Source of the DNA: Bacteroidota bacterium
GTDB taxonomy: Bacteria > Bacteroidota > Ignavibacteria > Palsa-1295
Direction: 5' to 3'
Length of the DNA stretch: 64,000 nt
Assembly (NCBI GenBank): GCA_018266755.1
Contig: JAFDZW010000002.1
Coordinates: forward strand, 1 to 64,000
The translations under genes and the position numbers were made by a program. Positions 17,885-25,097 of the stretch are shown here, in pieces. How positions within the stretch are numbered: the stretch's first letter is position 1; every line of letters starts with the position of its first letter. A model generated the notes under the pieces. That model did no database searches, was not told where the DNA came from, and saw only the letters and a program-made list of their open reading frames with translations.

Positions 17885-18739
17885 ATGACGGATACCGTAC
17901 CCATACTCACCGAAGCCTATGCCGAATGCCGGCGGATGGCTGCGCATTACGAGAATTTTCCCGTCGGCTCGGTGCTCGTCCCGAAGCGGCTGCGGCATCA
18001 CTTTTTCGCGCTCTATGCCTGTATGCGCATGGCCGACGATTTCGCCGACCTCCCCGAACGGCCTCGCGAGGAGCGCCTTCGACTCCTGGCCGATTGGCGC
18101 GACCGCCTGTTGAACCCGCAGCGAGACAGCGAACATCCGATCTTTCTTGCCCTTCGTAATACCATCACGGAGTGCCGACTCGATACTGCTCCGCTGCTTC
18201 GGCTGCTTGAGGCATTCGAGTTCGACGCTCGGGGCAATGTCCGATTCGAGACGTTCGACGACCTGCGCTGGTACACCGCCCGATCTGCCGACCCTGTCGG
18301 CGAGTTGGTGCTGGCACTCTTCGGGCACCACGAGCCCAGGCTCATTCAGCTCTCGAACGAAATTTGCACCGGGCTGCAACTGCTGAATTTTATTCAGGAT
18401 ATTAAGGAAGATCTGGCAAACGGGCGGTACTACTTCCCAAAAGAGGATTGGGATCTCTTCGAGATCGAACCGTCGGCAGAACCGGACAAAAACCGTCTGG
18501 CCCTGCTGTCACTCTTTGAGGCAGACCGCGTAGAATCGTTGATCGACCGCGGAGCACCGCTGGCTGAAATCGTCGGGGGGAGGCTCGGCCTCGAGCTCCG
18601 GGCAGTCGTACACTCGGCCCGTCGAATGGTGGCAAATATCCGCCGGTTGGACGGCAACACATATTTAACACGACCTACGCTCACGAGGCGGGAACAAATA
18701 TCGGTACTTTTGCAGTCTTTGTTGACACGAGCGGCATAA
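17885..18739 (+). CDS. hpnC: Squalene/phytoene synthase family, HpnC-like
   Basis: A 284-residue head-to-head prenyl synthase. The two acidic prenyl-diphosphate motifs are MADDFAD (about residue 43) and NFIQDIKEDLANGRYYFPKED. In the hopanoid pathway HpnC converts presqualene diphosphate to hydroxysqualene, after HpnD joins two farnesyl diphosphates. The stop codon shares a base with the ATG of the next gene (TAATG), so the two are coupled. The gene name rests on the HpnC-then-HpnD order and motif style; a carotenoid-type C30 synthase is the alternative. The third partner, HpnE, is not in the window. Confidence 0.8.
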   Translation: MTDTVPILTEAYAECRRMAAHYENFPVGSVLVPKRLRHHFFALYACMRMADDFADLPERPREERLRLLADWRDRLLNPQRDSEHPIFLALRNTITECRLDTAPLLRLLEAFEFDARGNVRFETFDDLRWYTARSADPVGELVLALFGHHEPRLIQLSNEICTGLQLLNFIQDIKEDLANGRYYFPKEDWDLFEIEPSAEPDKNRLALLSLFEADRVESLIDRGAPLAEIVGGRLGLELRAVVHSARRMVANIRRLDGNTYLTRPTLTRREQISVLLQSLLTRAA

Positions 18740-19671
18740 TGCTGGACGAACGACCCATCCATAGCGCAGAATCGATCTTTACGGAAGAGCCTCTTCCGCC
18801 CCCGGCGACGGGCGGAAAGAGTAATTTCTTCTACTCGTTCTCGCTCTTGCCGAAAGATCAGCGGCTGGCGATGCAGTCGGTCTATGAGTTTTGCCGATAC
18901 ACTGACGACCTCGTCGACGAGGACATCGCGCTCGACCTGCCCGGCATTAACATCAAGAAGGAGGTCGCGCTCGAGAAGAAGCGTATTCGACTCGACTGGT
19001 GGCGCGCAGAGGTCGAAAAATGTTACGACGGAAGCTCGAAGCACCCGATCCTTCGCAATCTCTACAAAGTTATTTCCCGCTTCAAGATCCCGAAGCAATA
19101 CTTCCTGACGCTCATCGACGGAGTCGAGATGGATCTCGTGCGCAATCGTTACGAGAGCTTCGACGAATTGAAGGACTATTGTTATGCGGTCGCAAGTATC
19201 GTCGGGCTTATCACGATCGAGATCTTCGGCTATAAGTTCGAACGCACGAAAGAGTATGCGATCGACCTCGGCATCGCGCTGCAACTGACGAACATCCTGC
19301 GCGACATCAAGAAGGACGCCTCGATGGGCCGCATCTACATCCCGGCCGAGGACATGCGCCGCTTCGGTGTCACCGAGCAGGACATCCTCAGCGGCAACTA
19401 CAATCTGAACTTCATCAACCTGATGAACTTCGAGGTTGCGCGAGCACGCGAGTACTACGCCGCCGCCCGCGCAAAGCTCGGCAAAGGCGAACGCTTCACG
19501 CTCTTCGCGGCGCAGATCATGGATGCGATCTACTTCCGCTTGCTCCGTAAGATCGAACTGGCCGAGTATAACGTCTTCCGCCACCGCATCTCCGTGAGCA
19601 CGCCCCACAAGCTCCTGATCGCCTTCCGCTTCTGGTTCTCGAGCGTGATCTTCCGCGAACGCGGCTCGTAA
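18739..19671 (+). CDS. hpnD: Squalene/phytoene synthase family, HpnD-like
   Basis: A 310-residue prenyl synthase with the first Asp-rich motif YTDDLVDED and the second LTNILRDIKKDASMGRIYIPAEDM, where the RDIxxD core binds magnesium and the diphosphates. YEFCRYTDD and QLTNILRD are typical of presqualene diphosphate synthases. It overlaps the upstream HpnC-like gene by 1 bp. Together they should turn farnesyl diphosphate into a squalene precursor for hopanoids or C30 carotenoids; no cyclase is nearby. Confidence 0.82.
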   Translation: MLDERPIHSAESIFTEEPLPPPATGGKSNFFYSFSLLPKDQRLAMQSVYEFCRYTDDLVDEDIALDLPGINIKKEVALEKKRIRLDWWRAEVEKCYDGSSKHPILRNLYKVISRFKIPKQYFLTLIDGVEMDLVRNRYESFDELKDYCYAVASIVGLITIEIFGYKFERTKEYAIDLGIALQLTNILRDIKKDASMGRIYIPAEDMRRFGVTEQDILSGNYNLNFINLMNFEVARAREYYAAARAKLGKGERFTLFAAQIMDAIYFRLLRKIELAEYNVFRHRISVSTPHKLLIAFRFWFSSVIFRERGS

Positions 19672-19708
19672 GTACCGGGCAGGGCCTGTTCATCAATCGG
19701 AGCCATCC

Positions 19709-19936
19709 ATGACGGACGATCTCTGCAGAGCTTCCAAGAAGAAGAAATATGCATCACAAGCGGAAGCCAATGCCGCCATTGCCGCGCTTGCACAGGTCCG
19801 ACGCAACACGCAATCACTTTCAAGCTATGAATGCCCGTACTGCAACTACTGGCACATGACAAGCAAACCGAAACCGGATTCCTCAGAGTCACGCCCACAC
19901 TTCCTGAAGCACCCGAGGAGCCGAAAGGCGAGGTAG
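19709..19936 (+). CDS. Small zinc-ribbon-like protein
   Basis: A 75-residue basic protein. After a Lys-rich start and an Ala-rich helix (ASQAEANAAIAALAQV) comes YECPYCNYWHMTSK: Cys42, Cys45 and His49 form a partial zinc knuckle found in many short bacterial and phage proteins of unknown role. It lies 37 bp after the HpnD-like gene on the same strand and may be read through from it. It could bind RNA or DNA; nothing more can be said. Confidence 0.6.
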   Translation: MTDDLCRASKKKKYASQAEANAAIAALAQVRRNTQSLSSYECPYCNYWHMTSKPKPDSSESRPHFLKHPRSRKAR

Positions 19937-19962
19937 TTTTTTCTACGGCGAGGGATTACTCC

Positions 19963-21561
19963 CTACCTCTCAACCACCACCATGTTCGTGTACGGTCCGT
20001 ACGGAGTGGTGATGCCGGCGAGGTAGATACCGCTCGGGAGTTTCGATACATCGACGTCCACGCTGTACTCCGTCAGACGTTTGATCGGCACCGACTGTTC
20101 GCGGCCCATGATGTCAACCAACCGTAGCGTCGTAATCGGGCAATTACGCGCCAGGGCAATCTGCGTATGTTCTGTCGCAGGGTTCGGAAACACATTGACG
20201 AACTTCGGATAGTTCAACGGGACGTACTCTTCTACCCCCGAGTGTGGTTGTTCGCCTTCATAGCGGAAAATATATGTATGCGCTCCTCGCTCTGCTGCAA
20301 TCCACACGTGGTTGCGGTCACTCGAACTAATGATCGCTCCGTCAGACTCCCCGAGATCGGAATCCCACAAAGTGGTCGAGTCTATACTCCACGTCTGACC
20401 GCGATCGGTCGAATGCACGATCCAATATGCGTCGTAATTCGTCGTATAGATCCTCGTGTTCGCCCACGTGTAGTATTCGTTTGGCTGACGAAGCACGGTC
20501 ATCCAGATATCATTCGTATCTGCAGCAGCAAATCCGCGAGCACGGTACGGGAAGGAACAATTGAAATGCCAACTCTTTCCGTAATCAGGAGTATAGGTAA
20601 ATGTCATGAGAGCGCGTATACCTGACGGTGACGTTAATCCCTGTAACGATACTTCAGCGCTGGTCGCTCTAAATGCAAATCCTGTACCGGCAATCATATC
20701 GCACTCTGTTCTTTCAGGCGTTTCCGTTGTGTTCCCCCAGTCTGCCGTACTCGAGAACCACGCTAAATGAGATACCAGGGAATCGGGCAGGTCAGAAAAG
20801 TAAGGAAACCACTTGCGACCGCCGTCTGAACTTACGAATGTTGTAATCCCCTTCGGTGACTGGAGATGGAGCGTATCTGCCAGATCTGTAACGAATGCGA
20901 ACCAGTGCACACTATCGATGTACACATACGAAGGCACTAAAGTCGGGTTGAGTGTATAGCTGTGCCCGTCTATTTGGTACGTATAGAACTCGCTCGGCGT
21001 ATTAAGTGCATGTGTAGTAAGCCCTCCGTCGGTAGAACCGAGAAGTTGGCCATTGATCTTGTCATTGAGGCCAACAATATAGTTATGGGGAAGACATGCG
21101 AACGGATTGAACGCGCTTAGAGGCTTAATCCAGTGCAACCCAAGATCGTCGGAGCGAAACAGCAGTGCTGCTGATATCGCTCGACCTCCTGTCGTGTCAT
21201 ATAGTCTACAGTACAGAGCATCACCACTCCAATTCAGTATACACGGATCACCGTAATATACAGGTCTAAGGGGAGCCGGGAACTTCAAAGGCGACCAAGT
21301 CCGACCACCGTCTGCAGTAAAGAAGTGCATCGGGTGCAAATCTGATCCATACTTCTCCTCAGGAACAGTATAGCGTCTACATACTAAGAAGCCGCGAGAG
21401 CTGTCAATAAAAAACATTTGAACAGGCCATAAGCTGTCGCCGGGGACCCGAACAACAGACCAGCGCCCATTAGCGGCTTGGGCCGACGACACGGAAGGAA
21501 GAAGCGCCAGATTCAGCAATAACAATGTGGCGCCTATTAGGAACCTGCAACTCCAATTCAT
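19963..21561 (-). CDS. Secreted BNR-type protein with T9SS sorting domain
   Basis: A 532-residue protein from the ATG at 21561, chosen because the signal peptide (to about VSSAQA) follows closely; an ATG at 21582 adds 7 residues. The body carries repeated Asp-box-like segments (FTADGGRTWSPL, VSSDGGRKWFPY, STDRGQTWSIDS), as in beta-propellers. The C-terminus is a T9SS type A domain: NVFPNPATEHTQIAL, LVDIMGREQ, LPSGIYLAGI. Expected to be exported and anchored or released. There is no sign of catalysis. Its architecture resembles that of the protein at 33442, so the two may be distant paralogues. Confidence 0.8.
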   Translation of the reverse strand: MNWSCRFLIGATLLLLNLALLPSVSSAQAANGRWSVVRVPGDSLWPVQMFFIDSSRGFLVCRRYTVPEEKYGSDLHPMHFFTADGGRTWSPLKFPAPLRPVYYGDPCILNWSGDALYCRLYDTTGGRAISAALLFRSDDLGLHWIKPLSAFNPFACLPHNYIVGLNDKINGQLLGSTDGGLTTHALNTPSEFYTYQIDGHSYTLNPTLVPSYVYIDSVHWFAFVTDLADTLHLQSPKGITTFVSSDGGRKWFPYFSDLPDSLVSHLAWFSSTADWGNTTETPERTECDMIAGTGFAFRATSAEVSLQGLTSPSGIRALMTFTYTPDYGKSWHFNCSFPYRARGFAAADTNDIWMTVLRQPNEYYTWANTRIYTTNYDAYWIVHSTDRGQTWSIDSTTLWDSDLGESDGAIISSSDRNHVWIAAERGAHTYIFRYEGEQPHSGVEEYVPLNYPKFVNVFPNPATEHTQIALARNCPITTLRLVDIMGREQSVPIKRLTEYSVDVDVSKLPSGIYLAGITTPYGPYTNMVVVER

Positions 21562-21637
21562 GCGCGCAAGATCGTCAATCAAGAGTTAAACATCAGCCCT
21601 GTGCGGATATGGTTCCCGCACAGGGCTTAGCAGTAGC

Positions 21638-22546
21638 TTATTGGCATGGCCCGCCGCACGTCGCAGTAGGCGGCGTCGTTGAATAGTCCATGCCACCAAC
21701 CATGTTGGTTGTAATGGTTGGATTATTAAATGTCGCCGACACAGTCTTGAACGGTGTTGGAATAAGTCCCCCCGGTTCCTTCCCGTTCCAATCCGGATCA
21801 CCGTTCGAGTCCCAGATATAGTACACCGTAGCGGAATTCACAGCCTGAATGCCATCCATTTCCCAAGTTAGATGGGCGAGCGGTGGTATTTCCCAGTACG
21901 TTGGGGTCGAACACGTCGTGCAAGTCGGCAGTGCGATGAGCCTGAACCTACAAATAAGATTTCCGGACGCATCGTAGCTACAATAGTCGCTGCCACCCCC
22001 ACGGCCATTGCACACTCCGTAGAATGTAGTATCCCACCTACTAAGCGCAAAATTCCACGCCTTGATACCCCAACTGTCATTATTCCATGGTGAGACGCCG
22101 AAATTCTTCATCACGTTACACACAACCACATTCCCACCAAATGGTCCGTTTTGTGCAATTTGTACCTCAAGATCAACCTGAACGACTGCCGGTGCATGTC
22201 CGTATGGACCGCAATCTGCAAGACATCCGGTATTGTTCCGCAAACTGAAGTAGTGATATGAGTTGGAGGGCACCGGACAGATGGTCCCGTTCGGGCGAAG
22301 CGTACACGGGACTGCCTGCTTGGAACAGGTAGTGATCCCGAGATAAATACCCGGTGTCGGCGGGGGGTTCGGGACAGAGTAAGTCCCAAGTATACAATTC
22401 CAAATCCAACAGTAATCGGTCGTCAGAGTCGTCTCGCCAAAGTCGCCGGTATTTGTGCCACACACATTGGACTGGCCAAAGCTTGTGCGATGCAGGGCAA
22501 CAAGAGCAAGCACCACAACTAATGTGAAATACAGCTTAGTTTTCAT
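21638..22546 (-). CDS. Cysteine-rich secreted protein, unknown
   Basis: A 302-residue protein with a signal peptide ending SFGQ near residue 25. The mature part has many cysteines, often paired with aromatic or Pro residues (CGTNTGDF, CWIWNC, CTLRPNGTIC, GCLADCGPYG, CTTC), so it is probably disulfide-bonded. No T9SS tail or known domain was recognised. It lies between the T9SS gene at 19963 and the sigma factor at 22697, all leftward, so the sigma factor might control both; gaps of 76 and 150 bp allow separate promoters. Confidence 0.6.
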   Translation of the reverse strand: MKTKLYFTLVVVLALVALHRTSFGQSNVCGTNTGDFGETTLTTDYCWIWNCILGTYSVPNPPPTPGIYLGITTCSKQAVPCTLRPNGTICPVPSNSYHYFSLRNNTGCLADCGPYGHAPAVVQVDLEVQIAQNGPFGGNVVVCNVMKNFGVSPWNNDSWGIKAWNFALSRWDTTFYGVCNGRGGGSDYCSYDASGNLICRFRLIALPTCTTCSTPTYWEIPPLAHLTWEMDGIQAVNSATVYYIWDSNGDPDWNGKEPGGLIPTPFKTVSATFNNPTITTNMVGGMDYSTTPPTATCGGPCQ

Positions 22547-22696
22547 AGAGCAACATCATCCATTCGTATTCTTTACAAACCAATATCGTCTGCATTCAAC
22601 GCAGAGATTAGGCAATGATAGGCCCCCTCATGTCCGGACATTACATGGGCGTTACTTTATATACGATTGAACCGGCAGAATCGGGTAGGTTGATGA

Positions 22697-23236
22697 TTAT
22701 GAATTCTTATGAATAATTCGTTCATCGTGCAGCGCAAGAGCCCGAAGTGTACGCAAGGCGGCTGTGATGCGGGCTTTGGCTGCATCGCTTGAAATGTTCA
22801 GAATCCGTCCTACTTCCGAGACAGTGTGCCCTTCCAGATAGTGTAACCGAACCGCTTCCGCTTGTTTCGGAGACAGCCGTTCGATCAATTGCTCGATCGC
22901 CAACCGTTCAAGCGTCAAATGTTCGGGGTTCGGGATTCGTATCGCACTATTCTGGTCGTGCGTATCAATCTGGGAGAACGGTACGAGCCGCTTGCGGCGG
23001 CGGATCTCGTCGATCAGCTTGCGCTTCGCTGCGGTGTATATCCGAGCGACGATAAATGGGTCGTCGATCGGTACATGAAGCAGAACCGACGAGACAGCCT
23101 CACCGATGGCAATCTCGAGAAAATCGTTTTTGTCGAGCCGGTATGAGGTCAGCATATATCGTACTGTGGCCTGAATTTCATTCACATCCGTGAATGGGGG
23201 GGGGGGGGGGGGGGGGACTGTTGTTTCATGTTTCAT
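22697..23236 (-). CDS. ECF-type sigma factor with a hypermutable poly-C tract
   Basis: A 179-residue sigma-70 family protein. Residues 8-14 are seven prolines encoded by a run of 21 C, just before region 2 (DFLEIAIGEAVSSVLL and KRKLIDEIRRRKR, the region 2.3-2.4 type of helix). Region 4 is clear: RLSPKQAEAVRLHYLEGHTVSEVGRILNISSDAAKARI. The start at 23236 is favoured because a TATATTTG element lies about 57 bp upstream and the earlier frame to 23407 has no coding character. As written, the tract leaves the gene in frame; loss or gain of one C would truncate it. No anti-sigma gene is adjacent. A start at an internal ATG (residue 29) would avoid the tract but cut into region 2. Confidence 0.8.
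   Translation of the reverse strand: MKHETTVPPPPPPPFTDVNEIQATVRYMLTSYRLDKNDFLEIAIGEAVSSVLLHVPIDDPFIVARIYTAAKRKLIDEIRRRKRLVPFSQIDTHDQNSAIRIPNPEHLTLERLAIEQLIERLSPKQAEAVRLHYLEGHTVSEVGRILNISSDAAKARITAALRTLRALALHDERIIHKNS
23196..23216. repeat. 21-nt G homopolymer inside the sigma factor gene
   Basis: An uninterrupted run of 21 G on the plus strand, equal to C21 in the coding strand. Runs this long slip readily during replication. The length may also be affected by sequencing or assembly, since such runs are hard to read. Confidence 0.9.
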
Positions 23237-23292
23237 AGTCTGAATTGCTACGTGATAATGGTACGGTCTGCTAAGACACAGGGCCTGATGAA

Positions 23293-23326
23293 CAAATATA
23301 TGCACTTTTTTGCCGCCGCCATGCAA
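23293..23326 (-). promoter_or_regulatory. Bacteroidota-type promoter of the sigma factor gene
   Basis: Read leftward, TTG (23324-23326) is followed after 23 bp by TATATTTG (23293-23300), an exact match to the TAnnTTTG -7 element. The spacing is slightly longer than the usual 19-21 bp. The leader to the ATG at 23236 would be about 50 nt. Confidence 0.5.
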
Positions 23327-23456
23327 AAACTCAGCCTCTCGTGTTCTTGCATTATCAACTAGAAACGGAATGTGACCTGTCTTCGTATTGTTGCCAGTGC
23401 TGATCAAATTCTACCGTTTAGTATTCCAGCGGTCGTTGTTTACCAACTCAAGAAAC

Positions 23457-25097
23457 ATGAAGATATTCCTCGCTCTCCTCGTCGTGTTCGTCGCTGCGTC
23501 AGCGGCATCGGCACAGATTACAGTCCATGGCATGGTGCATTGTGCTGACGGCTCCGCGCCGATCCTTGCACATGCGCATCTCGGGAAGATGCATGAAAAT
23601 GCGACGAAGAGCTCGAGCGTCGAGTGCAACGCAAAAGGCGCGTTCACGATGACCGTACCTGCTCCGGGTATCTATGAACTCCGGGTGAGCGCCGTCAGCC
23701 ATACCGAGGCAAGCATTCCCCTGATCGTCACCGAACCGAAAAAAGAGATCACGCTCGACGTGATGCTCAAAGCGAACAATTACGATCCGATGCCCGAGCA
23801 TGTGCGGATCATCGGCGACTGGAACAAGTTCGAATTCGCCGGTACCGATACGCTCGCGCCGGTGCAAGACCCGAACGGCATCTATACGTTTGTGGGCGAC
23901 CACATCGCTACGGCCGATACGCTTGCCTATCAGCTCCTGAGCGTCGCCGGCAATCATAGCGTCAATGGGTCGCAGGCCGATTACTACACCTATGACGGCG
24001 GCGGCGATTACCGTTCTGTACTTCGCACGAAGAAAGGCGAGAAGGTCACGATTACCTACGATCCGGCGAAGATGCAGTATGCATCGTCGATGCGTCTGCC
24101 ACGGATTCAGTTTAACGACGAGTTTTTGATGAAAGCGTATGCGCTCTATTCGACAGTCGAGCAAATGAGCGAGGAGATGATCGTCGAAACGAATGGTCAG
24201 CGCTCGATCTCCGGCGAGAAATATCAGGCAATGCTCGGCTACATCCGTACTGCCCTCTCCGGTGCGCAGGCCAGCGGTAACACAACGTTGGCGCAGTATG
24301 CGGCCGTCGTGTTGGCAAGCCAGTACAACCCCGACCTGCCGCTTTCAAAGGACGATGCAGCGACGATCCTTGCTGCCGTGCCGGCAAACTCGCCGATGTG
24401 GTCGCTCGCCCCGCATGAAGTGATAGAACTCACGTCGCTCGTCGAGCCGAATCAGGGAGCAGCCTATCGTACTGGCTTGGAGTCGAACCCCGAACGTTCG
24501 GTCCGCGCGGTCGCGCTTGCAAATCGTCTTGAGACGGCCTATACCGCAAAGCGGACGGACGAAGCGCGAACACTCTATACAACACTCAAGACCGAGTATA
24601 AAGATATCGACGATATCAAATACGAAATCACGAAGTTCAATCCCGACGCGGCGGTGCAACTCGGCAAGCATGTTCCTCCGTTCGAACTTGCGTTGCTCGG
24701 CGAGGCATCGAAAGTCAGCGACAAGTCGATGCTCGGACATTATTATATGATCGACTTCTGGGCAACGTGGTGCGGGCCGTGTGTGCGCGAGATGCCGGCA
24801 ATCCACAAAGCATACGAGAAATTCCGCGGACGAAAGGGCTTCGAGATCCTCTCTATTTCGATGGATGCCGCCGAAGGACAAATCGCTCCGTTTCGCGCCA
24901 AGAAGTGGAAGATGCCGTGGCTGCATGCGTTCATTCCCGGCATCTTCAATGCCGATCTGGCGAAAGAATTCGAAGTAGCCGGTATTCCACGGCCGATTCT
25001 TGTCGGACCCGACGGCACGATCGTCGCCATGGAAGATTCGATGCGTGGCGAGAACCTCGAGAAGACGCTCGCGAAATTCCTCGGCGAGCCCAACTGA
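23457..25097 (+). CDS. TlpA-like thiol-disulfide protein with N-terminal beta domain
   Basis: A 546-residue secreted protein, with its signal peptide at residues 1-20 from the ATG at 23457; the frame extends further upstream without coding character. Residues 22-110 resemble a carboxypeptidase-regulatory-like beta sandwich (ELRVSAVSHTEASIPL). The long middle is helical and unassigned. The C-terminal 140 residues are a TlpA/ResA-type thioredoxin fold with active site WCGPC near residue 438 and the cis-Pro segment AGIPRPILV. Such proteins reduce periplasmic disulfides, for instance during cytochrome c maturation. It is divergent from the sigma factor and ends at a bidirectional terminator. Confidence 0.85.
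   Translation: MKIFLALLVVFVAASAASAQITVHGMVHCADGSAPILAHAHLGKMHENATKSSSVECNAKGAFTMTVPAPGIYELRVSAVSHTEASIPLIVTEPKKEITLDVMLKANNYDPMPEHVRIIGDWNKFEFAGTDTLAPVQDPNGIYTFVGDHIATADTLAYQLLSVAGNHSVNGSQADYYTYDGGGDYRSVLRTKKGEKVTITYDPAKMQYASSMRLPRIQFNDEFLMKAYALYSTVEQMSEEMIVETNGQRSISGEKYQAMLGYIRTALSGAQASGNTTLAQYAAVVLASQYNPDLPLSKDDAATILAAVPANSPMWSLAPHEVIELTSLVEPNQGAAYRTGLESNPERSVRAVALANRLETAYTAKRTDEARTLYTTLKTEYKDIDDIKYEITKFNPDAAVQLGKHVPPFELALLGEASKVSDKSMLGHYYMIDFWATWCGPCVREMPAIHKAYEKFRGRKGFEILSISMDAAEGQIAPFRAKKWKMPWLHAFIPGIFNADLAKEFEVAGIPRPILVGPDGTIVAMEDSMRGENLEKTLAKFLGEPN

Follow-up and report, generated by a model that had tools for sequence, protein, structure and literature searches.

A C21 tract at the start of an ECF sigma factor gene in a Bacteroidota-like lineage: a candidate phase-variation switch for adjacent secreted-protein genes

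An ECF sigma factor gene in the window (the whole analysed stretch of 64,000 nucleotides) carries 21 consecutive cytosines a few codons after its start, and the best-supported reading of this arrangement, which we consider probable, is that slippage in the tract acts as an on/off switch for the sigma factor, and thereby for the adjacent secreted-protein genes at the least. The sequence-only reading had proposed a phase-variable regulator here. The anatomy of the locus indeed fits a contingency locus, and a functional switch gains likelihood from further regulators that bear tracts, both in this genome and in its family; on the other side stand several long tracts that are clearly noncoding. 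The features on which the argument draws are as follows.

18739..19671, plus strand: squalene/phytoene-synthase-like gene, named by resemblance, at one flank of the block
19963..21582, minus strand: gene for a BNR-repeat protein with a type IX secretion sorting domain (profile match)
21638..22546, minus strand: gene for an orphan secreted protein of 302 aa, directly downstream of the sigma factor gene, without a Pfam match (ORF and profile search)
22697..23236, minus strand: gene for a 179-aa ECF sigma factor, its frame open with 21 C in the tract (ORF and profile matches)
23183..23185, minus strand: in-frame GTG at codon 18, a possible downstream start or re-initiation site beside the off-frame stops (sequence)
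23196..23216, minus strand: homopolymer of 21 C within codons 7-14 of the sigma factor gene (sequence)
23293..23300, minus strand: TATATTTG, a putative Bacteroidota-type -7 box (TAnnTTTG), with a TTG at 23324-23326 (motif)
23457..25097, plus strand: TlpA/ResA-like thioredoxin-fold gene, divergent, at the other flank (profile match)

The tract reads as G21 on the plus strand at 23196-23216 and hence as C21 on the minus strand, where it runs from the third base of GTC through six CCC codons to the second base of CCA and encodes V-P7 immediately before the sigma domain. Both the 21 cytosines and their position at codons 7-14, as originally reported, are confirmed by the sequence and the ORF, the exact count, and with it the open frame, being the value of one assembly; the interval first given, 23196-23236, comprises the tract and the first codons, with the minus strand of the gene left unstated. 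No other C or G run of at least nine bases occurs in the 64-kb window. Runs of at least 21 are expected, by a Markov estimate, 1e-9 times in the window and 6e-8 times in the 3.55-Mb genome, and the tract is a frame-setting simple repeat far above chance length, as in contingency genes. Computed translations keep the frame at tract lengths of 18, 21 and 24 and stop after 16-20 codons at the other lengths tested; thus, any change in length not divisible by three truncates the protein within 20 codons.

Under the preferred reading, replication slippage would add cytosines to the tract or remove them. Lengths of 18, 21, 24 and so on would give a full-length sigma factor with a disordered poly-proline leader (ON), and other lengths would end translation no more than about five codons past the tract (OFF). 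The OFF state could be leaky, since the off-frame stops adjoin the in-frame GTG at codon 18, where translation might re-initiate. The ON sigma factor would most likely drive its own neighbours, namely the genes for the orphan secreted protein and the BNR protein exported by the type IX secretion system (T9SS), and a clone would split into secretors and non-secretors. In this scheme we infer the variation of tract length in cells, the activity of the sigma factor and its transcription targets; any regulon wider than the neighbouring genes is conjectural.

The sigma factor ORF is intact from the ATG at 23236 to the stop codon at 22697-22699 (179 aa), and the N-terminus of its product reads MKHETTVPPPPPPPFTDVNEIQ. 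Its assignment as an ECF sigma factor was made with Pfam and NCBIfam, in which both sigma region 4 and the ECF superfamily profiles score above their curated cut-offs (PF08281, 48.4 vs 25.7 bits; PF07638, 38.2 vs 21.1; TIGR02937, 47.6 vs 42.9). The TIGR02937 (sigma70-ECF) and PF07638 (Sigma70_ECF) matches cover residues 59-165, and, as regards region 2, most profiles begin only at residues 59-68, with a SigV profile alone extending to residue 20. A single-sequence structure model of the protein has a mean pLDDT of 55. A cognate anti-sigma gene next door is usual for ECF sigma factors, if not universal; no adjacent anti-sigma gene was recognised here, the next gene being the one for the 302-aa orphan secreted protein, which matches no Pfam family. 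In comparison with the ECF sigma factors gathered by TIGR02937 and PF07638, this protein stands apart in its tract-encoded proline leader and in the lack of a recognised adjacent anti-sigma gene. A paralogue in the same genome (G000, C5:1209794-1210303) is 35% identical and shares part of the leader, and no orthologue was found in the genus, the family, 391 genomes of the class, a scan of GTDB r220 contigs or plasmids.

Secreted-protein genes had been said to lie directly downstream, and this is borne out by the 302-aa secreted protein, for which no homologue was found in the family, and by the BNR protein with its type IX sorting domain. In one relative (G002) the homologues of the gene at 18739-19671 and of the TlpA-like gene at 23457-25097 are adjacent, about 110 bases apart, and another (G006) shows a like arrangement, with a 307-aa gene adjoining the TlpA-like gene. 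The block of sigma factor, secreted-protein and BNR genes is therefore lineage-specific, whether by gain here or by loss there. Scans for sigma-70-type promoters and for terminators across 19600-23600 returned nothing above chance. An inverted repeat, CCCTGTGCGG..CCGCACAGGG, lies at 21583-21637 between the 302-aa and BNR genes and is possibly a terminator or an attenuator.

A census of the same genome by pattern searches yielded 16 C/G runs of at least nine bases, four of them of at least 16. Besides C21, those of at least 16 are a G20 beside an IS transposase, a C16 directly after a stop codon and a C9-GTA-C18 directly after another stop; three of the four are noncoding. Noncoding tracts similar in size to C21 are at C2:396012, C5:1086749 and C6:194974. 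The G20 at the IS end, in the copy on C2 (L054, 2513-2532), is matched by only G5 and G4 in two relics of that end elsewhere in the genome (L120, L121), which indicates that such runs can grow without a gene to switch. The other long runs have clean flanks and unique contexts. Contingency tracts typically lie just after a start codon or lipobox, or at the 5' ends of genes for secreted or outer-membrane proteins. One small LuxR-type regulator gene with a tract near its 5' end (L201, G000:C5:1664000-1667500, tract 1587-1597, at about C5:1665588) is followed by a secreted-protein gene and reads MENLVVPNAEERVTPPP, then C11 followed by an AC repeat, then a GerE domain (HTH); it is out of frame in the assembly and would form a single open frame at a length of 9 or 12. 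Likewise, a lipoprotein gene has a G10 just past its lipobox (L202, G000:C5:1504500-1508500, tract 1564-1573, at about C5:1506064), with the body in another frame at length 10 and a single open frame at 9 or 12. As separate observations, a C11 run directly adjoins the ATG start of a DUF1800 gene (L074, G000:C2:91283), and the poly-C runs at L082 and L086 adjoin an interspersed repeat, CGTCATTCTGAGCG..GAAGAATC.

Runs of at least 13 are present in 29 of 100 relatives, the genome itself counted, many of them at contig ends. Within the family, three of the six interior tracts of at least 13, the query gene excluded, fall in sigma factor or LuxR-type genes. These are a C15 in a LuxR-type ORF of G012, whose GerE match (E 0.005) is below the cut-off and where N's follow the run, and G14 tracts in sigma-like genes of G008 and G009 (sigma region 4, Pfam), which sit at the gene's 3' end, where they would not give an on/off effect. 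Sigma factor and LuxR-type genes make up about 0.7-1% of G000, and the binomial p of about 2e-5 at 1% is optimistic because the gene category was picked after the data had been viewed. A directed search additionally brought up a LuxR-type gene in G006 that reads ATGAAAAATG-C9 in frame, and it was excluded from this count on account of its origin. In the rest of the class, two of the first 16 interior tracts lie in regulators, one in the sigma-like C-terminus of a G037 gene and the other a C13 in G091 (L115, G091:C44:46358) with response regulator receiver and GerE domains in different frames on either side. None of the 10 further class tracts added in an extension set beforehand lay in a regulator; the enrichment is therefore claimed for the family only, and there is no clear regulator enrichment of tracts outside it. 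Other class tracts (L204, L208, L210, L211) are located inside or immediately ahead of the 5' ends of genes for secreted or outer-membrane proteins. Those at L211 (G050:C52), L210 (G050:C26) and L208 (G025:C136), C/G runs of 13-14 in or just before signal peptides in other families, are by their position likely contingency loci. The gene at L204 (G043:C130) is a DUF1800 gene with an in-frame C13 near the N-terminus.

Further, a gene order in which a small regulator precedes an orphan secreted-protein gene occurs not only with the query sigma factor but also with its paralogue, the C11 LuxR-type gene, the C9 LuxR-type gene of G006 and the G14 sigma-like gene of G009, where secretion was assessed by visual inspection of the N-termini. 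The same gene order is found at the tract-free LuxR loci L168, L169, L173, L174, L183 and L189. That tracts turn up repeatedly in small regulators, some of them beside secreted-protein genes, suggests a recurring on/off switch.

In the window TAnnTTTG, the -7 promoter box of Bacteroidota, is five-fold denser in noncoding than in coding sequence (0.74 vs 0.14 per kb), and TATATTTG is its sole match upstream of the sigma factor gene, with the TTG 23 nt before the box. This placement would set the transcription start before the ATG and leave the tract inside the transcript and not in the promoter; a role for the tract as a promoter spacer is disfavoured, as the promoter-like box is about 80 nt upstream of it, and so is a start at TTG 23407, which would give a longer open frame but lies upstream of the box. 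An alternative is that the tract belongs to a 5' leader, with translation from GTG 23185 or ATG 23155, so that its length would tune translation or do nothing. The sigma profile matches do start past the tract, the first helix of the low-confidence structure model begins at residue 18, and a C11 run abuts the ATG in another gene. Against this, the paralogue ORF begins 12-13 residues before the equivalent of V18, which together with the position of the box supports a start upstream of the tract, and upstream of the GTG there is only the C run and a short linker. An A at -3 favours initiation in Bacteroidetes (PMC6847099); ATG 23236 has one and the downstream candidates do not, weak evidence because seven of 21 starts in the window have an A at -3. 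On balance, we consider a leader role for the tract improbable.

A serious alternative, though in our judgement an unlikely one, is neutral expansion, by which poly-C runs would grow by slippage anywhere in this lineage and this one would be tolerated, with no selection for switching, because it sits in a disordered leader that a newly acquired accessory gene can do without; any frame flips would amount to decay or noise. Its main argument is the growth of the run at the IS end to G20 from the G4 and G5 of the relics; it draws further on the noncoding position of three of the four longest tracts, on the absence of the sigma block from relatives and on the empty class extension. These noncoding tracts, the IS-end run and the extension, together with the G14 tracts at 3' ends, also speak against a switch, as do the orthologue search that gave no gene for comparing tract lengths and, for the G012 tract, the N's and the GerE score below the cut-off. 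Neutral expansion is in turn opposed by the family tracts, which hit small regulators far above their 1% share, by the several tracts placed directly after a start codon or lipobox, as is typical of contingency loci, and by a sigma factor frame that is otherwise intact. It might also be supposed that the assembled length is wrong, with the gene usually out of frame, or that the run is partly an artefact of assembly. Long homopolymers are error-prone on all sequencing platforms and are miscounted in assemblies, and the contigs of relatives often break at such runs; yet the other long runs of this genome have clean flanks in unique contexts, and an artefact would not produce so long a run in a contig that is otherwise good. 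We regard an error of this kind as very improbable, and slippage switching of the sigma factor remains the reading we favour.

Most known slippage switches come from host-adapted pathogens, where they act on surface genes, methylases or two-component regulators. In mechanism the locus resembles homopolymer phase variation of flgR/flgS in Campylobacter jejuni (PMC3930126): there too a regulator gene is switched by the gain or loss of bases in coding homopolymers and the regulon follows, as shown for flgR, but the tracts are of A and T and the system is a two-component one, whereas here a C21 lies in the sigma factor itself in a Bacteroidota-like lineage. With the 'phasevarions' formed by the phase-variable type III Mod methylases of Helicobacter pylori (PMC3930126), the locus would share the property that one slippage event alters the expression of many genes, those systems acting via DNA methylation and a sigma factor acting via promoter recognition. 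The sigM C2/C3 polymorphism of M. tuberculosis and M. bovis (PMC1501019) likewise concerns an ECF sigma gene whose C-run length differs between genomes and alters the ORF, but the run has two to three bases and represents a fixed difference between strains rather than a hypermutable tract. No description of a slippage-switched sigma factor was found in a literature search that covered few subscription journals.

If the switch is real, slippage control of a sigma factor would alter an entire class of promoters in one step. The tract-bearing small regulators, several of them beside orphan secreted proteins, constitute a short list of loci for testing the idea. More tentatively, it is possible, although we hold it with some doubt, that the family maintains a set of small one-gene regulators, comprising ECF sigma factors and LuxR-type HTH proteins of a single domain, many placed before their own orphan secreted protein and several randomly switched by poly-C tracts, which would amount to a distributed phase variation at the level of regulators that includes phase-variable sigma factors.
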